Program-made: the position numbers and the translations under genes
Assembly (NCBI GenBank): GCA_012961035.1
Contig: DUAC01000007.1
Coordinates: forward strand, 1 to 49,190
DNA from: Acidimicrobiia bacterium
GTDB taxonomy: Bacteria; Actinomycetota; Acidimicrobiia; Acidimicrobiales; MedAcidi-G1
Direction: 5' to 3'
Length of the DNA stretch: 49,190 bases
Shown: one piece after another, positions 16,205 through 31,257 of the stretch
How the letters are laid out: each line of letters begins with the position of its first letter
Numbering within the stretch: position 1 is the first letter of the stretch
Notes under the pieces: generated by a model
Told to the model about the DNA's origin: nothing
Database searches by the model: none
Seen by the model: only the letters and a program-made list of their open reading frames with translations

Positions 16205-18244
16205 TCAGCGGGCCACCCTCCGCTGCTCCACGAAGTCGACGAGCACGTAGTCGCCGAGGTTCTCATTCGTGGTGAAGAACGCCCGTCCGCCGTTCAACCG
16301 GGTCATGTCCTCGACGAAGCGGGCCAGGTGCGGCGTGGCGTCCAGCACGAAGACGTTGATCCTGATCTTCTCGCGGGTGCAGCGCCGAACCTCGCGAAGC
16401 GTCCGCTCCACCGTCTCGCGGGTGGGCGGATAGCTGAAGACGGGAAGGCCGTCGTCGGTCAGGTGGGCGGTCGGCTCACCGTCGGTGACCATGATTATCT
16501 GCCTGTTCCCCGACTGGCGCGCCAGGATCGCCCGCGCCAGGGCGAAGCCATGCTGCATGTTGGTGCCGTACACGTAGTCCCAGGACACCTCGGGCAGGCG
16601 CTCGGGCCGGATCTCCCTGGCCACCTCACTGAACGTGACCACCCCCAGGAAGTCCCGCGGGAACTGGCTGGACATGAGCGAGTGCAGGGCCATCGCCATC
16701 TTCTTGGCCGGGAGGAAGTTCCCCCGCATCGGCATCGACAGGGAGAGGTCCAACATGAGAACCGTGGAGGACCGGACCTCCGACTCGGTGCGTTCGATGG
16801 CGAAATCCTCCGGCATGAGGGCCACCGGCACGCCGGCACCGCCCCTGGCCACCGCGTTGCGAACCGTCTGCTCGATGTCCAGGTCGAACGGGTCACCGAA
16901 CTCCCACGGCCGGGTCGTGAACTCACGCTCGTGGCCCAGACCGGCCCGGGACTGGTCGTGGCGACCTGACCGGTCCCGGCTGAGCCGTCGGTAGAGGTCC
17001 GACAACGCATTCTGGCCAAGTCGTCGGATCGCCCTGGGGGTCAGCGTCAGGCCCTCCTCGGTGTTCTCGATCAGGCCGGCCTCGGTCAGGAGCCGGGTCA
17101 TCTCCGCCAGCCTCTCGAGGCTCTCTGCGGACTCATCGTCCAGGAGGTCCCGTACGCGGTCGATGTCCACCTCGGCCAGGGCGCCCGGCGAGGACGCCCC
17201 GCGCAGCATCTGCTCGAGCTGGTCCAGCTCGGCCAGTTCCTCCATCGCCTCGAAGGCCCCGCCCAGGTCCAGGGGCTGGTCGCCGGTGAACTGGCGGGAG
17301 TCCTCCCACCCCATCTGCGGAAAGGCCTCGCGTAGGGACTCGCCCAGTCGGGACACCTCCCACTGGAGGTCCAGGTCCTCCATCAACTGGTCGGAGAGTT
17401 CCTGCAGCTGCGCACGCTGCTCGGGCGTCATCGAGTTGAGGACCTGCTGCATGGCCGCCATGCGACGGGCCAGGACCTCCAGGAGCTCGTCGAGCGTGGT
17501 GGGGTTCTCCGGGAAGAAATCGCCGAACCGCTCCATGAACCCGGCGAAGTCCGGTTCATGGCCCTCGGACCTCTGCTCCAGCATCCGGTTCAACTCGGCC
17601 AGCATCTCGACCATGCGGGAGCGGCCCTCGGGCGTCATGGCCTGCGTGGCGTCGGATACCTGCTCCACGAACTGCGCCATGAGCTGCTCTCGTAGTCGCT
17701 CCAGCAGGGCCTCGAACCGCTGGCGGGCCTCGGTAGAGGCGAAGTCGTGCTGCTGCAGGCCGCGGACCTTCCCGGCCAGGTTCTCGTGTTCGAGGAGGTC
17801 CAGGTGGTCCCGGCGGGCCTGGCTGGCCTGGCTGGCCGCGCTGGCTTCATCCATGGACGAGCTCTCCGGATCACGCCCACCCATGTCGTCGGTCTCCGGG
17901 GTACCCAGTGCGGCCCGCTCCTCGTCGATGACATCGCGCAGGGCCTGGTCGATCTCGGCGTAGACGCCGCCCAGGTCATCCCTCCCGAGGCGCTCCTGTC
18001 GGGCCCGGCGCAGCCTCTCGAGGATCTCCCGGATGCCCTGGAGGTGTTGGCCGTCGACGTCGAGGCCCTGGTGGAGCATCCGACGCAGGGCCGATTCCGG
18101 GTCACCGTGCTCGATTAGCTCGTCCCCCATTGCCTGGAGGAGCGCATCGGCGTCCAGATCCGGCAACTCCTGGGTGCCGTCCCACCTGGAGTAGGTGGAC
18201 CGTCGCACCTCCCGGCGGTGGGAACGACGTCGCCAGCGGGTCAC
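16205..18244 (-). CDS. von Willebrand factor A domain protein (COG4867-like)
   Basis: This large soluble protein has 679 residues. The N-terminal two thirds is long, charged and helical, with coiled-coil-like stretches (for example MVEMLAELNRMLEQRSEG). The C-terminal vWA domain has the MIDAS motif D499-L-S-L-S503 (VLMLDLSLSM), a GVVTFSE strand and MVTDGEPTAH. Such proteins work with MoxR-type AAA ATPases in metal-dependent assembly or activation; the probable partner is the ATPase at 19383-20813 on the same strand. The GTG start follows TAGGGT by 6 nt. Confidence 0.88.
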   Translation of the reverse strand: MTRWRRRSHRREVRRSTYSRWDGTQELPDLDADALLQAMGDELIEHGDPESALRRMLHQGLDVDGQHLQGIREILERLRRARQERLGRDDLGGVYAEIDQALRDVIDEERAALGTPETDDMGGRDPESSSMDEASAASQASQARRDHLDLLEHENLAGKVRGLQQHDFASTEARQRFEALLERLREQLMAQFVEQVSDATQAMTPEGRSRMVEMLAELNRMLEQRSEGHEPDFAGFMERFGDFFPENPTTLDELLEVLARRMAAMQQVLNSMTPEQRAQLQELSDQLMEDLDLQWEVSRLGESLREAFPQMGWEDSRQFTGDQPLDLGGAFEAMEELAELDQLEQMLRGASSPGALAEVDIDRVRDLLDDESAESLERLAEMTRLLTEAGLIENTEEGLTLTPRAIRRLGQNALSDLYRRLSRDRSGRHDQSRAGLGHEREFTTRPWEFGDPFDLDIEQTVRNAVARGGAGVPVALMPEDFAIERTESEVRSSTVLMLDLSLSMPMRGNFLPAKKMAMALHSLMSSQFPRDFLGVVTFSEVAREIRPERLPEVSWDYVYGTNMQHGFALARAILARQSGNRQIIMVTDGEPTAHLTDDGLPVFSYPPTRETVERTLREVRRCTREKIRINVFVLDATPHLARFVEDMTRLNGGRAFFTTNENLGDYVLVDFVEQRRVAR

Positions 18245-18429: not shown

Positions 18430-19293
18430 ATGCCCATCAACCCCGACGCCGCCGGATCCGTGGGCGAACCCACCGAGATCTCCTGGACCTCCAAGCAGAG
18501 CCTCATCTACGCACTCGGCATCGGTGCCGGCGTATCGGACCCCACCGGCTTCGAGCTGGAGTTCACCACTGAGAATTCGGACGGCGTGGACCAACGGGCG
18601 TTCCCCACCCAGTGCGTGGTGATGGGCGGGGGCCGGACCCCCGGCTTCGGCGACTTCAACCCGATGTTCCTGCTCCATGCCGAGCAGGCGATCACCTGCC
18701 ACCAGGAGATCCCGGCCGCCGGAAAGGGCATCGCCACCGGCAGGATCGGTGAGATCTACGACAAGGGGAAGGCGGCCCTCGTCTACATGCAGACCGACGT
18801 CACCGATCCGGATGGAACCCCCCTCTGGTCCACGCGATCTGGATTGTTCATCGGCGGCGAGGGCGGCTGGGGCGGCGACCGCGGACCATCCAACGACTGG
18901 GAACTCCCCGACCGCGAGGCCGATCACGTGGTCACCTACGAGACCAGGCGGGACCAGGCGCTCCTCTACCGGCTTAGCGGCGACCGCAACCCGCTGCACT
19001 CCGATCCGACATTCGCCGCGGGGGCTGGATTCGACACGCCGATCCTCCACGGGCTGTGCACCTACGGGTTCACCGGACGTGCGCTCCTGCACGCCGTGTG
19101 CGGCTCCGACCCTGCACGGTTCGCCTCCATGGGCGGCAGGTTCAAGTCGCCGGTCATGCCCGGAGAGACCCTGGAGGTCCACGCCTGGGAGGACGACGGA
19201 CCCGGCGGATCCGATAGCGGACGGGTCCTGTTCCAGACCCGTGTCGGTGACCGCGTCGTCTTTGACGCCGGCGTCCTGACCCGCAGGACATGA
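18430..19293 (+). CDS. MaoC-type (R)-enoyl-CoA hydratase, double hot-dog
   Basis: A 287-residue protein whose C-terminal half carries the hydratase-2 motif (YRLSGDRNPLHSDPTFAAGAGFDTPILHG), in which the Asp of SGDRNPLH and the His are the catalytic pair. The N-terminal half reads as a degenerate hot-dog domain, as in MFE-2/17-beta-HSD type 4 hydratases and actinobacterial steroid or fatty-acid enzymes. The expected reaction is hydration of trans-2-enoyl-CoA to (R)-3-hydroxyacyl-CoA. ATG 18430 has GGAG 6 nt upstream. The gene runs opposite to, and lies between, the vWA and MoxR-like genes. Confidence 0.88.
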   Translation: MPINPDAAGSVGEPTEISWTSKQSLIYALGIGAGVSDPTGFELEFTTENSDGVDQRAFPTQCVVMGGGRTPGFGDFNPMFLLHAEQAITCHQEIPAAGKGIATGRIGEIYDKGKAALVYMQTDVTDPDGTPLWSTRSGLFIGGEGGWGGDRGPSNDWELPDREADHVVTYETRRDQALLYRLSGDRNPLHSDPTFAAGAGFDTPILHGLCTYGFTGRALLHAVCGSDPARFASMGGRFKSPVMPGETLEVHAWEDDGPGGSDSGRVLFQTRVGDRVVFDAGVLTRRT

Positions 19294-19382: not shown

Positions 19383-20813
19383 TCAGGCGCGGATCCGGTA
19401 GCGGGATCCCCTCCCGGTCGTCTCCTTGTTGAGGCGCTTGGAGAGGTGCAGGCCCTCCAGCACCAGCTCCACGGCGCTGGCGACAAGGGCCGGCGGGGGA
19501 TCGCCTCCACCCGGTTCGTCTCCCAGCAGGACGGTCACAGCCGTGGCGAGAGCGGGGATCCCGGCGGCCACCTCGGCATAGGCGCCCGACCCGATGGCCT
19601 CGCCAACCGACACGCCGACCGACACGCCGTCGTGCTCCTCGAAGGCCTCGACCACACCCCGGTGCAGCTCACCGGGAACCACCTCCCGGAACACCCCCAG
19701 GAGGGCCGCCCGGACGATCCTGTCCAGGATCTCGCCGTCACGATCATCGTCGATGCTGTCGATCTCGACCTTGCCGGCCATGGAAGCGGCGAGGGCATCC
19801 AGGTCCGATACCCGGGGCACGGCCACCGCTTCGCCGGATCGCACGGCCCGACGCACGGCGCTGGCCGCCAGGGCCTCCTGGTTGGCGATGCTCACCCTCA
19901 CCGACACCCCCGACCGCTGGTTCAGGTGGGGGCTGCGGCGGGCCTCGTGGGTGATCGCCACCACCACCCGGGACATGAAATCGGGAACGACCACGTCCAA
20001 CCCGTCCACCACCGGGATGGTCGCCTCCTGGTCCACGATGTCCATCTCGACGTCGGGGTCCAGCGGATAGTGGGTCCTGATCTGGGAGCCGAAGCGGTCC
20101 TTCAGCGGGGTGATGATGCGACCCCTGTTGGTGTAGTCCTCCGGGTTGGCCGAGGCGAACATCACCACGTCCAGGGGAAGGCGGATCCGATGTCCCCTGA
20201 TCTGGACGTCCCGTTCCTCCAGGACGTTCAGGAGGCCGACCTGGATGCGTTCGGAGAGGTCCGGGAGTTCGTTGATGCAGAACAGTCCACGGTTGGTGCG
20301 CGGCACGAGGCCGTAGTGGATGGTCAGCTCGTCTGACAGGTAGCGGCCCTCCGCCACCCTGATCGGGTCCACCTCACCGATCAGGTCGGCTATCGACGTG
20401 TCCGGGGTGGCCAGCTTCTCGCCGTAGCGGTCATCGCGGTGCACCCAGCCCAACTCGGTGTCGTCTCCCATCTCGGCAACCAGGTCCCTGGCGTAGCGCG
20501 ACACCGGTCCGTAGGGGTCGTCGTTGATCTCCGAGCCGGCGACTATCGGCATCCATTCGTCCAGCAGACCGGTCAGGCTCCGGATGAGGCGGGTCTTGGC
20601 CTGCCCGCGCTCGCCCAGGAAGATCACGTCGTGCCCGGCCAGCAGGGCGTTCTCCAGCTGCGGGATCACCGTGTCCTCGTAGCCCAGGACCGTCGGGAAC
20701 ATCGGCTCCCCGGACCGGATCATGGCCACGGCGTTGCGGCGCAGCTCCTCGGCAACCGGTACGGACTCCCAGCCGGCCAATCGCAGTTCGCCCAGTGTGG
20801 TCGGTCGCGTCAT
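19383..20813 (-). CDS. MoxR / magnesium-chelatase-type AAA+ ATPase
   Basis: At 476 residues this has the Walker A loop GERGQAKT (67-74), the Walker B-like GLFCINELPDLSERIQ and a sensor stretch FASANPEDYTNRGRIITPLKDRFGSQI, matching the ChlI/MoxR group. Such ATPases remodel target proteins with a vWA partner; the vWA gene at 16205-18244 fits. The C-terminal third is family-specific. ATG 20813 follows TATGGT by 7 nt. The open frame continues upstream but would overlap the divergent GH2 gene. An alternative ATG lies 12 nt upstream but would fall inside that -10 box. Confidence 0.87.
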   Translation of the reverse strand: MTRPTTLGELRLAGWESVPVAEELRRNAVAMIRSGEPMFPTVLGYEDTVIPQLENALLAGHDVIFLGERGQAKTRLIRSLTGLLDEWMPIVAGSEINDDPYGPVSRYARDLVAEMGDDTELGWVHRDDRYGEKLATPDTSIADLIGEVDPIRVAEGRYLSDELTIHYGLVPRTNRGLFCINELPDLSERIQVGLLNVLEERDVQIRGHRIRLPLDVVMFASANPEDYTNRGRIITPLKDRFGSQIRTHYPLDPDVEMDIVDQEATIPVVDGLDVVVPDFMSRVVVAITHEARRSPHLNQRSGVSVRVSIANQEALAASAVRRAVRSGEAVAVPRVSDLDALAASMAGKVEIDSIDDDRDGEILDRIVRAALLGVFREVVPGELHRGVVEAFEEHDGVSVGVSVGEAIGSGAYAEVAAGIPALATAVTVLLGDEPGGGDPPPALVASAVELVLEGLHLSKRLNKETTGRGSRYRIRA

Positions 20814-20931: not shown

Positions 20932-23058
20932 ATGGACCTTCCGGGGCCCTGGCGGGCCAGGGTGGCCGACAATGCCCTCCGCCGGACCTTTCCCGACGAT
21001 GACCTGGACGACGGCGACTGGCCGGAGGTGGCCGTCCCCGGCCACTGGCAGGCCGAACCCGACTTCAGCACCGAGGACGGACCACTCCTCTACCGGACCC
21101 GGTTCTGCACCACAGAGCCGACCGCCGACCAGAGGCTCTGGCTGGAATTGGACGGGGTCTCCTACCAGGGCGACGTCTGGTTGAACGGCTCCTACCTGGG
21201 CCCCACCGAGGGGTACTTCTTCCGCCACGCCCTCGAGGTGACCAGTGCGGCCCGCTCCCGCTCCGAGCACCTCCTGGCCGTGGAGGTGGCCTGCCCGCCG
21301 ACCGGCAACCCCGACGAGAAGCGCACCCTCACCGGCTCCACCCAGGGCGCCCCCGGCGGCCACAACCCCGGAGGCATCTGGCAGCCGGTGCGCCTGCGCC
21401 TCACAGGGCCGATCCACCTCCAGCACGTCCGCGTGGTCTGCACCCGAGCCACCCAGAACGTGGCCACCCTGGCGCTGCGTGCGGTCGTCGACTCCGATCG
21501 CCCCCGGGCGGCGGTGTTCCGGACCCGGATCCTGGGCATCGACCACCGCCACCGCCAGCCACTGGCCGGCGGCGAGAACAGGGTCGAGTGGACGGTCCGG
21601 GTGCCGCGCCCGCCGCTCTGGTGGCCTACCGAGCTGGGCGACCAGCCCCTGAACGACGTCGTCCTGGACGTAGCCACCGAAGACGGCCTGGTCAGCGACA
21701 CGACGGTACGCACCATCGGATTCCGGTCGGTCCGGATGAGGGACCACGTGTGGGAGGTGAACGGCGAGAGGTTGTTCCTGAGGGGGGCCATCGTTCCGCC
21801 CCTGGACCGGCACCTGGCATCGGTCACGACCGAGTCGACCGGGAGGGACCTGGAGCTGGCCCGTGATGCCGGCCTGAACCTCCTCAGGGTTGCCGGCCAC
21901 ATCTCGGCTCCCGCCCTCTACGAGGCTGCCGACCGGTCCGGGATGCTGCTCTGGCAGGACATGCCCCTGACCGGCGGATACCACCGGGGGGTGCGGGGCC
22001 AGGCGGCCCGCCAGGCCCGTGAGATGGTCGACCTGCTGGGCCACCATCCGTCCGTGGTGGTGTGGTGCGGGCACGACGCCCCGGACCCGGTGGACCGCAC
22101 ACGTGCCGCCCCGCGGCTCATGGCACAGCAGTGGCCGACATGGAACCGGACCGTGCTGGACCGCGCCGTCCACCGGGCGCTGGACCAGGCCGACCCGTCC
22201 AGACCGATCATCAGCCACTCCGGCGTGCTCCCCAACCTGCCCTACCTGGACGACGCCGACAGCCACCTCTGGTTCGGCTGGTACAGCGGCAGGCGCGGGG
22301 ACCTGGCCGACTACCTGGACCGCCTGCCGCGGGTCGGCCGATTCGTCTCCGCATTCGGGTCCCAGTCGGTTCCCGAGGACTCGCCCGCCCTGACCGACGG
22401 CACCCTGGATCCCTCCACCTGGCCCGACGTCGACCTGGAGGGGCTCGCATCCCGGTACGGCGCCGAAGCCGAGGTGCTGGTCCGTCGGTTCCCCCCAGCC
22501 GACCGACCGGACCGGGAATCCTGGGCGTCCGCCACCCGCCAGCACCAGGCCGATCTGCTCAGGATCCAGGTCGAGGCGCTGCGCCGCCGCAAGTACCGGC
22601 CCACCGGCGGCTTCGCCCTGGACCGCCTACTCGACGGTGCACCGGCCATCTCCGGCTCGCTGCTGGACCATCGTCGGGTCCCGAAGCCGGCCTACGGGGC
22701 GGTCGCCGCCGCCTGCGCAGAGACGATCGTGGTGGCGGACCCACCACCGCTGAGCATTACCCCGAGGTCCACCCTGGAATGCCGGGTACTGGTCGTACAC
22801 GACGGCCGGACGCCGATCCACCACGTACGCGTGGACGCCGTGCTGACCGTCGCCGGCCGGGAGCAGGCCAGGTCCTGGGGTGGATCCATCGAAGCCGATT
22901 CCGTGACGCTGGTAGGCACGATCCGGCACCAGTTGGGCGATGCCACCGGGGAGGTGCTCCTGGACCTGCGGGTGACCCGAACCTCGCCACCGGGTGGCCC
23001 ACCGGCCGACGGGCGGACCACCACCAACCACTACCGCGGCCATATAGGCGCCGGTTGA
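20932..23058 (+). CDS. Glycoside hydrolase family 2-like protein lacking both catalytic glutamates
   Basis: The 708-residue protein has the GH2 order: sugar-binding domain (about 1-150), Ig-like domain, TIM barrel (about 265-610) and a C-terminal beta domain. It is closest to beta-mannosidase-like GH2 (SHLWFGWYSG, LPRVGRFVSAFGSQSVPE). In that group the acid/base lies in WCGNNE and the nucleophile in SEFG/SEYG. Here they read WCGHDA (Ala383) and SAFG (Ala474). The 91-residue spacing matches the family, so these are true substitutions and not a misreading. It probably binds rather than cleaves a glycan. There is no signal peptide, suggesting a cytoplasmic location. Confidence 0.85.
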   Translation: MDLPGPWRARVADNALRRTFPDDDLDDGDWPEVAVPGHWQAEPDFSTEDGPLLYRTRFCTTEPTADQRLWLELDGVSYQGDVWLNGSYLGPTEGYFFRHALEVTSAARSRSEHLLAVEVACPPTGNPDEKRTLTGSTQGAPGGHNPGGIWQPVRLRLTGPIHLQHVRVVCTRATQNVATLALRAVVDSDRPRAAVFRTRILGIDHRHRQPLAGGENRVEWTVRVPRPPLWWPTELGDQPLNDVVLDVATEDGLVSDTTVRTIGFRSVRMRDHVWEVNGERLFLRGAIVPPLDRHLASVTTESTGRDLELARDAGLNLLRVAGHISAPALYEAADRSGMLLWQDMPLTGGYHRGVRGQAARQAREMVDLLGHHPSVVVWCGHDAPDPVDRTRAAPRLMAQQWPTWNRTVLDRAVHRALDQADPSRPIISHSGVLPNLPYLDDADSHLWFGWYSGRRGDLADYLDRLPRVGRFVSAFGSQSVPEDSPALTDGTLDPSTWPDVDLEGLASRYGAEAEVLVRRFPPADRPDRESWASATRQHQADLLRIQVEALRRRKYRPTGGFALDRLLDGAPAISGSLLDHRRVPKPAYGAVAAACAETIVVADPPPLSITPRSTLECRVLVVHDGRTPIHHVRVDAVLTVAGREQARSWGGSIEADSVTLVGTIRHQLGDATGEVLLDLRVTRTSPPGGPPADGRTTTNHYRGHIGAG

Positions 23059-23212: not shown

Positions 23213-24093
23213 ATGGCACAGACCACAGAGCAGCGGTATCGCGTGGCTCCGGTCCGGAGCCGCGGGCGGGAATGGCCCTTCCCGTTGAACCTCTACCAGT
23301 CGGCGGTCGGACGCAAGTGGGTCATGGCCCTGACCGGCATGGGCCTCATCGGCTTCGTCCTCATCCACATGGTCGGCAACCTCCACGTGTACGAGGGCCC
23401 TGCCCGGATGTACGAGTACGCCGAGTCGCTGCGCACCATCGGTGGTGGGCTGGTACCGGAGGGCGGGGTGCTGTGGCTCATGCGCCTCGGCCTGCTCACC
23501 ATGTTCGTCGTACACCTCCACTCGGCGATCACCCTCAGCCGAATGAGCGGCAACTCCAGCGAAAAGGCCGGTCGCATCAGCGGCGCCAAGAAGTACGAAG
23601 GCGGACGGGACCACATAGCAGCCACCTTCGCCAGCCGGACGATGCGCTGGACGGGACCGATCATCGCCCTGTTCGTCCTGTTCCACCTGGCCGACCTGAC
23701 CTGGGGTTGGTGGCTCGGCGGAGACTTCGTGCCTGGCGATCCGTACCACAACGTCGCCGAATCCCTCGGCTACCTACCCGTGGCCATCATCTACGTGGTG
23801 GCCAACATCGCCCTGGCGTGGCACATCTTCCACGGCGCCTGGTCCATGTTCCAGAGCCTCGGGGTGAACAACCCCCGCTACAACCACCTGCGGCGCACCC
23901 TCGCCACCACCCTTGCCGGGCTGATCCTGGTCGGGAACCTGAGCTTCCCGATCCTCGCCCAGGCCGGGCTGATCGACGAGGACGGACGCATGTGTCCGGT
24001 GGGCGAGGTTGAAGGCAACGCCTGCCTGGCCGAGCAGGGCCACGGTGCGGCGGCCACCGGACATGGGACCGATTCGACAGGGAGCGTGTCACC

Positions 24094-24097
<4 letters not shown>
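23213..24097 (+). CDS. sdhC: Succinate dehydrogenase cytochrome b558-type membrane subunit
   Basis: A 294-residue protein with five predicted membrane spans of the single-subunit b558 family. Likely heme-ligand histidines occur in [35 protein letters not shown] and [20 protein letters not shown]. It anchors SdhAB and passes electrons to the quinone. The C-terminal tail is histidine- and glycine-rich. ATG 23213 has GAGGAGG upstream. The 3' end overlaps sdhA by 4 nt. Confidence 0.92.
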
Positions 24098-26052
<1,955 letters not shown>

Positions 26053-26141
26053 GACCAGCAGGCAGCATCAGGACGTTGGAGCCGGTCACCCCGATGGCCT
26101 CAGCGCCACCGGATACCGGGACCAGAAGGGAACACCACGAC

Positions 26142-26924
26142 ATGGGCGGAGGACACGGCGAGACCATCAGCGTCACCCTCAGGGTGTGGCGCCAGGACGG
26201 CCCCGACGAACCGGGCCGTTTCGACGTCCACCACCAGACCATCAGCACCGATGCCTCGTTCCTCGAGATGCTCGACCTGCTGAACGAGGAGCTGAACGCC
26301 GCCGGTGAGGAGCCGGTGGCATTCGAGAGCGACTGCCGCGAGGGGATCTGCGGCACCTGTGGCGTGATGATCAACGGGCGGGCGCACGGACCCCAGAAGG
26401 CCACCGCCACCTGCCAGCTCCACATGCGGGAGTTCTCCGACGGCGACGAGATCGTGATCGAGCCGTTCCGTGCAGCCGGCTTCCCGGTGGTGCGCGACCT
26501 GGCGGTCGACCGGTCCCCCCTGGATCGGATCATCGAAGCCGGCGGATACATCTCGGTCGGTACGGGAGCGGCATCCGACGCCAACCTCACCCCGGTCCCG
26601 AAGGTGGCGGCGGACCAGGCGTTCGACGCCGCCGCCTGCATCGGATGCGGTGCCTGCGTGGCCGCCTGTCCGAACTCGGCGGCGCAGTTGTTCACCTCGG
26701 CCAAGATCGGCCACCTGGGCCTGCTGCCCCAGGGTCAGGCGGAGCGCTGGAGCCGGACCGAGACCATGGTCGAGACCATGGAGGAGTACTTCGGCTCGTG
26801 CACGAACCACGGCGAGTGCTCGGAGGCCTGCCCGAAGGAGATCTCGCTGGACTTCATCGCCTTCATGAACCGCGACTACATCAAGGCGAAGGTCAGGAAC
26901 CGGGCCCTTACCGGCCAGCACTGA
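26142..26924 (+). CDS. sdhB: Succinate dehydrogenase iron-sulfur subunit
   Basis: A 260-residue protein holding the three electron-relay clusters: [2Fe-2S] in [12 protein letters not shown] with a fourth Cys at TATC, and two further clusters in [12 protein letters not shown] and [12 protein letters not shown]. It completes the sdhCAB operon, 89 bp after sdhA. ATG 26142 is chosen because GAAGGGA lies 12 nt upstream; an in-frame ATG at 26094 would add 16 residues with no homology to SdhB. Confidence 0.93.
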
Positions 26925-28333: not shown

Positions 28334-28795
28334 GTGCCCAACGCCCCGACCGCCCCACACCGCCATCCGGTGAAGGTCCGGTTCTACGAGCTGGACCCCT
28401 ACGGGCACCTGAACCACAGCGTCTACGTCCAGTTGTTCGAGATCGGCCGGATCGAGCTGCTGGACGAGGCGGGACTGGGACTGCACGACCTGGAAGCCGA
28501 GGGCTTCCGGTTCGTCGTCTCCCGCATCACCACGAAGTTCCTGGCCTCTGCTGTCGCCGGCGACAACCTCGTGATCGAGACCGAGGTACTCGAACTGCGG
28601 CGCGCATCGTCCCGCTGGGGACAGCGTCTCCTCCGGGGCGACGCCGTGCTGGCCACACAGGAAGTCGTGGCCGCCGTCACCGGCACCAACGGGAGGCCCA
28701 CCCGCTTCCCCACCGACATGGCCGCCCGCCTGACCCCCTACCTGGTCGCGGACCCGCCCCCCTCCGTGGTGGCCGCCGGGGGCGCCGGGACCTGA
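28334..28795 (+). CDS. Acyl-CoA thioesterase, 4HBT (YbgC) type
   Basis: The 153-residue hot-dog enzyme has the 4-hydroxybenzoyl-CoA thioesterase motif YELDPYGHLNHSVYVQLFE (Asp21, His25, Asn27). It should hydrolyse acyl- or aryl-CoA. GTG 28334 is supported by a leaderless-type -10 box. Its TGA shares one base with the ATG of the downstream DUF368 gene, so the two are translationally coupled; YbgC-type thioesterases elsewhere act near envelope genes, which would suit a lipid-carrier transporter. Confidence 0.88.
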   Translation: MPNAPTAPHRHPVKVRFYELDPYGHLNHSVYVQLFEIGRIELLDEAGLGLHDLEAEGFRFVVSRITTKFLASAVAGDNLVIETEVLELRRASSRWGQRLLRGDAVLATQEVVAAVTGTNGRPTRFPTDMAARLTPYLVADPPPSVVAAGGAGT

Positions 28796-29739
28796 TGACG
28801 GACACCGTGCCCCACCGGGGCCAGGACCGCCCCGGGGCGCCAACGCTGCTGGCACAGCTGGGACGCGGTGCCTGCATGGGAGCGGCCGACGTGGTCCCCG
28901 GCGTGTCCGGTGGGACCCTCGCCCTGCTGTTCGGGATCTACGACAGGCTTCTGGCTGCGATCCGCAGCGGTTCGCGCGCACTGGGCCGGTTCATACGGGG
29001 CGACCTACGCGGAGGCCTCCGACGGCTCGGCGAGGTGGACTGGTGGTTCCTCGTCCCGCTGCTGGTCGGCCTCCTGTCCACCGTCGTGCTGCTGGCCGGC
29101 GTGATCGAGGGCGCCCTCATCGACCACCCGGAACCCATGGCCGGCCTGTTCCTGGGCCTGGTCGTGGCCTCGGTGCTGGTGACCCGTCGCGAGGTGGCAT
29201 GGACCCGGCGGCGCCTCGGCGGAGCCTCCCTGGTCAGCGTCGTCGTCTTCGCCGGGCTGGGCTACCAGGGGGCTCCGATCACGGATCCGTCCGCCCTGAT
29301 GCTGCTGGCCTCGGGGGCAGTTGCCGTCTGCGCCATGGTCCTGCCGGGTATCTCTGGCTCGTTCCTGCTGCTCATCCTGGGCATGTACTCCGCGGTGATC
29401 GGCGTGGTGGACGAACGCCTGCTCCTCGACGCTGCCGTGTTCGGCGCCGGTGCGATCGTCGGCCTGGCGTGCTTCTCCTCGCTTCTGGCCGGCCTGCTGG
29501 AACGGCGCCGCGACGACGTCCTGGCCGTGATGGTCGGGCTCATGGCTGGTTCGCTACGGGTCCTCTGGCCCTGGCCCAACGGCGTCGGCGTGGTCAGCCG
29601 GCATGCCGACGTGGCCGTCGGTGGGGCCGACCTGGGCTGGCCGGACGCCGCTGGTGGTCTGGTCGCACCGATGGCCCTCGCCATGGCCGCCGTGGTGGTG
29701 GTCCTGGTCGTCGACTCTCTGGCCCGCTCCAGGAGCTGA
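28795..29739 (+). CDS. DUF368 undecaprenyl-phosphate transporter (PopT-like)
   Basis: The 314-residue multi-span membrane protein carries the DUF368 signatures GACMGAADVVPGVSGGTLALLFGIYDRLL and MVLPGISGSFLLLILGMY, two repeated PGxSG motifs. DUF368 proteins were shown to return the C55-phosphate carrier across the cytoplasmic membrane for cell-wall synthesis. Function here rests on that family. It overlaps the thioesterase gene by one base and converges with the next gene 4 bp away. Confidence 0.9.
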   Translation: MTDTVPHRGQDRPGAPTLLAQLGRGACMGAADVVPGVSGGTLALLFGIYDRLLAAIRSGSRALGRFIRGDLRGGLRRLGEVDWWFLVPLLVGLLSTVVLLAGVIEGALIDHPEPMAGLFLGLVVASVLVTRREVAWTRRRLGGASLVSVVVFAGLGYQGAPITDPSALMLLASGAVAVCAMVLPGISGSFLLLILGMYSAVIGVVDERLLLDAAVFGAGAIVGLACFSSLLAGLLERRRDDVLAVMVGLMAGSLRVLWPWPNGVGVVSRHADVAVGGADLGWPDAAGGLVAPMALAMAAVVVVLVVDSLARSRS

Positions 29740-29743
29740 CCGT

Positions 29744-30910
29744 TCAGGCGTACGCCGGGTAGACGTCAACGCCAGGGTCGCGTTCCGGTGGCTCCATGTC
29801 GGTCGTGACCAGCGGGTACAGGTCTGCGGGGGTGTCCCGAGGGCACGTCCAGTCGATCTCGTCTGCCACGCCTGCGATCTCGGCGAACGGTCGCAGGAAG
29901 GTGAAGTAGACGTAGGCGCCACAGGCGATGCGCTCATCACGGTCCATGGCGACGATGTCCCGGTAGTGCTGCCGCTGGGCCACCTTCGCCGCCGCAGCCG
30001 TTGCCTCCAGGTCCTGGTCGGAGAGCGGCACCGGCAGCCCACCGGGTGCCACTCCATCGGTGGTGTAGAGGCCGAACCCGCTGAGGTGCTCCAGGTAGTC
30101 CTCCGGCGATGAGATGGTCGTCCCGTAGTCGGTGATGGACACCTCGACCTCCGGGTCCAGGACCAGCGCCGCCGTGAGGTTGCGGAACGGAACGCCCGCT
30201 GCCACGCCGGACCAGGAGAAGTCGCTCTCCCCGAGGCGGTAGAAGTCCCGGACGATCATGGTCCGGCCGTCCTCCAGGCGGTACGGGCCGGTATCGGCAT
30301 GGCCCACCCGGGTGTCGAAGTAGAGCAGGAACAGGTGGTTGATGATCGTGGCATTGGCCCTACGGATCCGGTCACGGCGCTCGTCGTCTACCGCCCTGGC
30401 CCCGGCGGCCAGGTGGGTGACCATGTCTGGCGACAGCACCTCGATCCGGTTGCCCACCTCGGCGGCATGCAGGTACGGGCCGCCCCGGTAGGCGTGTGAT
30501 GCACGCGCCCAGAAGTCCAGCACCGTGTGGGTCCGCTGAACGGAGTCCAACGTCGGATCCACCATCGCCATGACGTTGCGACCGATGAGGAAGAAGTTGG
30601 CGATCCCCCACAGGAACACCGAGTCGGCCTGGCAGCCGGGCCGCCGGGCCGCCGCACCGATCTCCTCTGGCGACATGGCGGCGGCGATCCTCGCCACCGC
30701 CTCCGGGTAACGCAGGAACGCCTCGATGCACGACACGGTCACGTACGGGGTGACGGGTATGAGCTGCGACGAATAGGAGGTGCGTTCAGCCACCAGGTGG
30801 CTGGTCACCGGGTTGATGGCGGCCAGCCAGGAGTTCACCTGCTCCCGGGCCGTTTCGTCTGCTCCCCCGGACAGCACACCCGGGTCCCCGCCGACAGGAT
30901 CGCAGCTCAT
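29744..30910 (-). CDS. Hypothetical 388-residue partner of the swivel-domain protein
   Basis: A soluble, balanced-composition protein with no motif I recognise. Notable stretches are CIEAFLRYPEAVARIAAAM, HTVLDFWARASHAYRGGPYLHAAEVGN, LFLLYFDTRVGHADTGPYRLEDG and RDFYRLGESDFSWSGVA. No ATP-grasp, PEP-binding or signal sequence is visible. ATG 30910 overlaps the stop of the upstream swivel-domain gene by 4 nt (ATGA), so the two are almost certainly co-translated. A role in a phosphohistidine relay is inferred only from this pairing. Confidence 0.75.
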   Translation of the reverse strand: MSCDPVGGDPGVLSGGADETAREQVNSWLAAINPVTSHLVAERTSYSSQLIPVTPYVTVSCIEAFLRYPEAVARIAAAMSPEEIGAAARRPGCQADSVFLWGIANFFLIGRNVMAMVDPTLDSVQRTHTVLDFWARASHAYRGGPYLHAAEVGNRIEVLSPDMVTHLAAGARAVDDERRDRIRRANATIINHLFLLYFDTRVGHADTGPYRLEDGRTMIVRDFYRLGESDFSWSGVAAGVPFRNLTAALVLDPEVEVSITDYGTTISSPEDYLEHLSGFGLYTTDGVAPGGLPVPLSDQDLEATAAAAKVAQRQHYRDIVAMDRDERIACGAYVYFTFLRPFAEIAGVADEIDWTCPRDTPADLYPLVTTDMEPPERDPGVDVYPAYA

Positions 30911-31257
30911 GGCGTTACCAGCCGGATCACGCCCTCGTCGCCTGACGCGTCCAACTCCACCTCTGTGCCGTTCACCGGTTCGTCGGTGAGCTGGGCGGCG
31001 ATCACCCCGGGCACCCTGTACTCCCGACTGACGATCCCGATGTGGCTCCGGATCGTGCCACCGGTGCACACCACGCCGGCCAACTCGTCGAAGATCGGTC
31101 CCAGGAACGTGGCGCCGGCATCCCGAACCACCGCCACGATGCCGTCAGCGCCGGTGTCCATGAGGTCCAGGACGTCCTCGGGGCCCTCCAGGCGGAGCCA
31201 TCGACCGCGCCGGAGCCCGTAGTCATAGGTCTTCTGGCCACGCCCGATCTCGGTCAT
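30907..31257 (-). CDS. Stand-alone PEP-utilising enzyme mobile (phosphohistidine swivel) domain
   Basis: This 116-residue protein is essentially one PEP-utilizers domain. The motif TGGTIRSHIGIVSREYRVPGVIA (quoted in part: SHIGIVSREYRVPG) carries the phospho-acceptor His72 as in PPDK, PEP synthase and rifampin phosphotransferase. Those enzymes also hold ATP-grasp and PEP-binding domains, absent here. Stand-alone swivels are known, for example in phenylphosphate synthase, where partners are separate proteins. The only adjacent co-directional gene is the unknown 388-residue one. Confidence 0.82.
   Translation of the reverse strand: MTEIGRGQKTYDYGLRRGRWLRLEGPEDVLDLMDTGADGIVAVVRDAGATFLGPIFDELAGVVCTGGTIRSHIGIVSREYRVPGVIAAQLTDEPVNGTEVELDASGDEGVIRLVTP

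Follow-up and report, generated by a model that had tools for sequence, protein, structure and literature searches.

Gene content of the locus

The window analysed here, a stretch of 49,190 nucleotides from an Acidimicrobiia genome, carries an intact open reading frame for a GH2-like protein (708 amino acids; ATG at 20932, stop codon at 23056–23058, zero internal stops), placed between a divergent MoxR-type AAA+ ATPase gene, with its VWA-domain partner beyond, and the succinate dehydrogenase (SDH) genes sdhC, sdhA and sdhB (Table 1). The scores of the SdhA product against the NCBIfam models NF005749 and TIGR01811 are both above cut-off. A MaoC-like gene abuts the MoxR gene in the window, and relatives have a GH1-like gene between these two. 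Further downstream of the sdh genes, two genes conserved in this position in the window's bacterial family, at 29744–31069 (−) and 28795–29739 (+), presumably encode an MpaB-like protein and a DUF368-like membrane protein, respectively. Scans for sigma-70 promoters and terminators, which are uninformative for a G+C-rich actinobacterium, found none, and the promoter box assigned to the GH2-like gene in an earlier sequence-only reading was thus not recovered.

Table 1. Features of the window and of comparison loci (prefixed L) discussed in the text
Feature	Coordinates	Strand	Details
VWA-domain partner of MoxR	16205..18244	−	Pfam VWA_2
MaoC-like hydratase, between VWA and MoxR	18430..19293	+	Pfam MaoC_dehydratas
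MoxR-type AAA+ ATPase, divergent neighbour	19383..20813	−	Pfam AAA_5, Mg_chelatase; neighbourhood kept class-wide
GH2-fold protein, putative pseudoglycosidase	20932..23058	+	708 aa; family models, PDB search, AlphaFold2 model
Domain order of GH2-fold protein			N-terminal sugar-binding-like, Ig-like, TIM barrel (about 282–595), C-terminal beta domain
Thr347-Gly348	21970..21975	+	Gln-Trp in intact orthologues; Gly348 goes with nucleophile loss in independent lineages
Acid/base motif WCGHDA (W378–A383)	22063..22080	+	Asp382 for Asn, Ala383 for Glu
Asp382 codon	22075–22077	+	
Ala383 codon	22078–22080	+	
Nucleophile motif SAFG (473–476)	22348..22359	+	Ala474 (GCA, 22351–22353) for Glu
SdhC, cytochrome b subunit	23213..24097	+	Pfam Sdh_cyt; 154 bp downstream of GH2-like gene
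SdhA, succinate dehydrogenase/fumarate reductase flavoprotein, B. subtilis type	24094..26052	+	NF005749 1147 bits, TIGR01811 933 bits
SdhB, iron-sulfur subunit	26079..26924	+	Pfam Fer2_3, Fer4_8; start codon provisional
SdhA, type B	L108:9071-10807	+	
SdhA, type B	L195:11739-13565	+	
SdhA, type C	L160:12161-14149	+	
GH1-fold gene (others exist)	L149:6047-7417	+	
GH1-fold gene	L160:4972-6198	+	
GH1-fold gene	L111:9850-11088	−	

Family membership, fold and catalytic motifs

Both homology and fold place the window protein in GH2. The Pfam model Glyco_hydro_2_N2 is matched at 37.1 bits against a cut-off of 27, with Glyco_hydro_2 and Glyco_hydro_2_C sub-threshold, and the best PDB sequence matches found by phmmer are 6byg, 6byi and 6byc (4e-26). 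Structure prediction, proposed in the sequence-only reading as a check, returned an AlphaFold2 model of GH2 fold with a pLDDT of 93.8 and a pTM of 0.92, its closest fold match being the exo-β-mannanase 6byc (Z 35.3 over 660 residues).

The boundaries of the gene, the WCGHDA and SAFG motifs and the GCA codon had all been given exactly in that reading. In the phmmer alignment against the PDB, Ala383 and Ala474 fall on the acid/base and nucleophile glutamates of the Xanthomonas exo-β-mannanase, and the crystallised E-to-A mutants 6byi and 6byg (E477A and E575A in their PDB titles) match the window protein at one site each. The 91-residue spacing between the two positions, previously equated with that of β-mannosidases, is real in this protein but is not the β-mannosidase spacing, E477 and E575 of XacMan2A being 98 residues apart. 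The two residues that mark an active GH2 enzyme, the acid/base Glu of WCGNNE and the nucleophile Glu of SEFG, are both absent; retaining GH2 enzymes lacking nucleophile and acid/base are not expected to hydrolyse at useful rates, and hydrolysis has probably been lost in the window protein. No signal peptide is evident on reading the N-terminus (MDLPGPWRARVADNALRR), as had been noted before, and the protein is best read as cytoplasmic.

Distribution and age of the glutamate losses

A search for orthologues of the GH2-like gene was positive for 62 of 100 relatives and for 37 of 148 genomes from other orders of class Acidimicrobiia, the named database relatives being uncultured Acidimicrobiales or Acidimicrobiaceae genomes. 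The window's genome has a single GH2 match, which rules out a pseudogenised paralogue left by duplication in that genome. Catalytic positions were compared in 27 members of the window's family (f1), all of which lack both glutamates: position 474 is Ala and position 382 is Asp in every one, and position 383 is variously A, S, G, T, V or N. The suggestion that the WCGHDA/SAFG form might be fixed in a clade accordingly holds for Ala474 and for the absence of both glutamates, with position 383 left variable. In some 30 family genomes, the gene is free of stop codons and frameshifts. Since independent genomes show the same catalytic replacements, sequencing error is ruled out, as is a recent loss, since some 30 genomes of the family are without either glutamate; close homologues with glutamates, by which a recent loss would have been recognised, are not among the compared sequences, these residues occurring only in other families.

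HNEP and SEFG are retained in many other families of the class and in relatives from Chloroflexi and Bacillota, so the ancestor very likely carried both catalytic glutamates, and since orthologues elsewhere in Acidimicrobiia often keep both, a single-copy enzyme appears to have turned into a pseudoenzyme. With the catalytic columns removed from the alignment, the tree requires at least 10 changes at position 474 and at least 11 at position 383, and a mixture model on 48 rows gives 7 and 6, respectively; on these reconstructions the nucleophile would have been lost about 7–11 times across the class. A second lineage with HDAP and SAFG is found in another order (L180 and L182, family f64), where the GH1-like neighbour is still intact. 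A single clade for the double-Ala forms of the two families, as a horizontal origin would entail, was rejected by an AU test (p 0.0012), and the form in the other order arose independently.

Several members keep an Asp382-Glu383 pair with A, S, G or Q in place of the nucleophile (L035, L036, L111, L114, L117, L130, L134 and L194), a combination that resembles the Asp-Glu pair used by substrate-assisted hexosaminidases and may reflect a change of mechanism. By extension, the window protein might be a cryptic enzyme that uses Asp382 or an external nucleophile, a proposal that draws on these HDEP/xAFG intermediates, on the presence of HDEP with A, G or S at position 474 in several lineages and on the fixation of Asp382 in the family; it is highly improbable, however, as Glu383 has also gone from the family, leaving no ordinary acid/base, and position 383 evolves fast (8 changes, a count of at least 8 being reached by 15% of sites).

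In one 2.0-Mb genome, the GH2-like gene (L202:7926-9785) shows alignment gaps at both catalytic segments and still adjoins sdh genes. Genome streamlining was rejected as a cause of the losses, nucleophile-less members being present, as judged by eye, in 3–5 Mb genomes as well.

Selection on the gene and its pocket

Nine close pairs within the genus give a dN/dS of 0.15–0.22 for the GH2-like gene, which is clearly purifying and in most pairs exceeds the values for SdhA, SdhB, SdhC and MoxR. Taken with the loss of both glutamates from all 27 family members and the excellent predicted fold, these values bear out the earlier description of an intact gene as opposed to a decaying one, and the protein has the attributes of a pseudoenzyme, namely absent catalytic residues, purifying selection, fixation in the family and intact orthologues in other families. 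Slow decay toward gene loss, whereby a useless activity is abandoned and the catalytic sites erode first, would fit the many separate losses of the nucleophile, the complete disappearance of the gene from genera g3 and g6, a dN/dS above that of most neighbours, the relaxed pocket residues described below and the L202 member without an active-site segment; it appears distinctly unlikely, given the absence of stops and frameshifts in the family, a dN/dS still about 0.2, the uniformity of Ala474 and Asp382, and the recurrence of the same substitutions in separate lineages.

With the pocket set defined as the strand ends (barrel ends) of the predicted secondary structure, the family shows 2.21 changes per site in the pocket against 3.78 in the rest of the barrel (p 0.003), a ratio close to that of the intact clade (4.77 against 8.54). 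R319, H323, Q342, D343, H381 and W450 are invariant in the family and in the intact clade, and H445 is kept in 25 of 27 family members; H321, Q347, W348, D443 and Q478, each with a conservation of at least 90% among intact orthologues, have been relaxed or replaced in the family, where Asp382 and Gly348 are newly fixed. Across the alignment, Gly348 and Asp382 are each present in 40 of the 45 rows without the nucleophile, and Trp348 in 39 of the 44 rows that keep Glu474. Independent pairs mostly agree in coupling the N382D and W348G changes to nucleophile loss, up to 5 to 0 for W348, a sample of 5–6 pairs that cannot reach p 0.05. A Fisher test for an excess of altered conserved sites in the pocket gave p 0.026 with the two glutamates included and 0.095 without them.

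Judged from these alignments, the pocket is partly conserved and partly re-fixed, not simply preserved. A cytoplasmic, lectin-like pseudoenzyme whose unaltered pocket still binds the ancestral sugar, with no tie to SDH, would explain why the pocket changes more slowly than the rest of the barrel and why six of its residues are invariant and H445 nearly so, and the GH2 E-to-A mutants 6byi and 6byg do remain folded; the five relaxed or replaced residues nevertheless argue against such a protein, which would also leave the SDH neighbourhood unexplained, and this alternative is considered unlikely. The specifically glycan-binding role put forward in the sequence-only reading is not upheld on the same grounds, with the six invariant residues set beside the five that have changed.

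The succinate dehydrogenase neighbourhood

Throughout the class, the GH2-like gene lies between the divergent MoxR–VWA chaperone pair and the sdh genes. Neither this setting nor the second inactivated glycosidase described below featured in the sequence-only reading. Among the 27 representatives of the window's family, MoxR is nearby in 22–23 and SdhA in 23–24, with every other neighbour reaching 7 at most; in family f7, sdhBAC is flipped yet still adjacent in most members. Three non-orthologous SdhA types occupy the same place, all less than 2 kb from the GH2-like gene: type A (NF005749/TIGR01811) in the window and most loci, type B (TIGR01816; L108, L109, L110, L128 and L195), 28–31% identical to the window's SdhA, and type C (NF005866; L160, within the window's own family), 27% identical to it. 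The distal neighbours at L160 are the same as in its relatives, which points to a replacement of the SDH type in place at that locus; ancestral tandem SDHs with differential loss could alternatively have produced the present types. The SDH neighbourhood thus outlasts the loss of the catalytic residues, the flip of the sdh genes and the change of SDH type.

Association is not obligatory in either direction. SDH is kept without the GH2-like gene in two genera of the window's family, g3 and g6, and in single members of f54, f7 and f20, and the gene is dispensable for SDH-bearing genomes. Genomes of g2 and some of those of g1 lack the MoxR–VWA pair altogether and keep the GH2-like gene, MoxR being missing from 12 searched g1/g2 genomes that retain it; an obligate complex of the GH2-like protein with MoxR and VWA is therefore excluded, and dependence of the GH2-like protein on the pair is not borne out.

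Against a role in SDH, conserved gene order may be inherited without function, the protein then having an unrelated cytoplasmic role and merely an ancestral position beside SDH and MoxR–VWA. Loss of the GH2-like gene without loss of SDH, its own 154-bp gap before sdhC and its holding place beside flipped sdh genes are all compatible with inheritance of this kind, to which a low probability is nonetheless assigned, as the remaining neighbours show no conservation across an equal distance and three non-orthologous SDH types are found at the same place.

A second inactivated glycosidase fold

The GH1-like gene, absent from the window's genome, lies between VWA and MoxR in many relatives, its product matching PF00232 above cut-off in 10 of 10 tested. 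Intact forms with NEP and the nucleophile Glu are found, for example, at L181, L118, L110, L185, L187, L172 and L174, and in the window's family and several others NEP has become EDP, DDP or LDP, with Ala or Gly as the nucleophile residue in nearly all; exceptions are L150, which keeps the nucleophile Glu, and L126, which keeps the acid/base Glu. The dead form is predicted to adopt a GH1 barrel (pTM 0.86; PDB match 1vff, 2e-27). Of 40 loci, 24 have dead forms of both the GH1-like and the GH2-like protein and 9 have intact forms of both, and since the GH1-like state changes only about twice on the tree, linked death of the two was rejected as an independent association. A GH1-like relative found by whole-genome search of G074 (L274:1132-2685) has one in-frame TGA inside the match and is possibly a pseudogene.

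Proposed role of the GH2-like protein

The long retention of a glutamate-less protein beside SDH genes suggests a different, non-cutting job there, and the fixed fold, the partly re-fixed pocket, purifying selection and the SDH neighbourhood are best accounted for together by binding without hydrolysis in connection with SDH. The window protein is accordingly proposed, with moderate confidence, to be a cytoplasmic, single-copy GH2-fold pseudoenzyme serving as a non-hydrolytic accessory factor of the neighbouring SDH; binding by the protein and the functional link to SDH are both inferred. The ancestor would have been a retaining β-glycosidase encoded beside SDH genes and the divergent MoxR–VWA pair. 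In the window's lineage, loss of the nucleophile and the change of Asn382 to Asp would have occurred in or before the ancestor shared with neighbouring families, after which the acid/base Glu at position 383 could have drifted freely. Selection would now keep a folded body and a reshaped pocket for binding instead of cutting, the protein acting in assembly, stabilisation or regulation of the adjacent SDH, possibly with MoxR–VWA where that pair is present; candidate ligands are sugars, glycolipid head groups and peptide segments from a partner.

A more far-reaching and tentative proposal is that VWA, GH1-fold, MoxR and GH2-fold proteins form an undescribed SDH module of Acidimicrobiia; one or two of its members, of glycosidase fold, may on repeated occasions have turned into factors that assemble or regulate SDH without hydrolytic activity. 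For the GH2-fold member, the recurrent changes of Trp348 to Gly, Asn382 to Asp and Glu474 to a small residue would then mark a new function gained repeatedly, as opposed to decay.

The persistence of the SDH neighbourhood through loss of catalysis, sdh inversion and change of SDH type poses a direct test, namely whether the protein binds, assembles or regulates SDH, and the intact orthologues of other families provide natural before-and-after pairs.

Comparison with known systems

The closest structural relatives are the GH2 enzymes XacMan2A (6byc/6byg/6byi), BtMan2A (2je8) and DtMan (5n6u), with which the window protein shares domain order and fold (Z 32–35 over about 650 residues, at about 22% identity) and the TIM-barrel motifs around both catalytic positions. 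It differs from these mannanases and mannosidases in the replacement of both glutamates by Ala and of Asn382 by Asp, in the shorter spacing given above, in having no visible signal peptide and in its location in an SDH locus.

Pseudoenzymes usually originate from spare gene copies, whereas here catalysis was lost, apparently many times over, from a conserved enzyme with no second copy, and the gene was retained. Catalytically dead glycoside hydrolase proteins are known in Klotho (GH1 fold), heparanase-2 and the chitinase-like lectins, which are animal proteins mostly derived from duplications. They resemble the present case in keeping the glycosidase fold, losing the catalytic residues and reusing the fold for binding, and differ from it in that here a single-copy bacterial orthologue was itself converted, several times. 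Heparanase-2 is stated to be inactive (PMC12406646). A literature search, with most subscription papers outside its scope, found no paper on a GH2 pseudoenzyme or an SDH-linked dead glycosidase; dead glycosidases as such are known, and the present case stands out by its repeated conversion and its setting beside SDH genes.

For a partner of the SDH type, the precedent, not the proof, comes from Escherichia coli, where the MoxR–VWA pair RavA–ViaA binds the FrdA flavoprotein directly and lowers fumarate reductase activity (PMC10585395). The Acidimicrobiia loci are alike in linking a MoxR AAA+ protein and a VWA protein to a succinate/fumarate oxidoreductase, here at the level of gene neighbourhood only, the genes adjoining one another as a RavA–ViaA-type system would have it; they differ in that no GH2-like component has been described in the E. 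coli system (PMC10585395) and in that the GH2-like protein persists in some genomes that lack MoxR–VWA. The present loci would thereby add a bacterial group with MoxR–VWA beside a succinate/fumarate oxidoreductase to a link so far studied mainly in E. coli.
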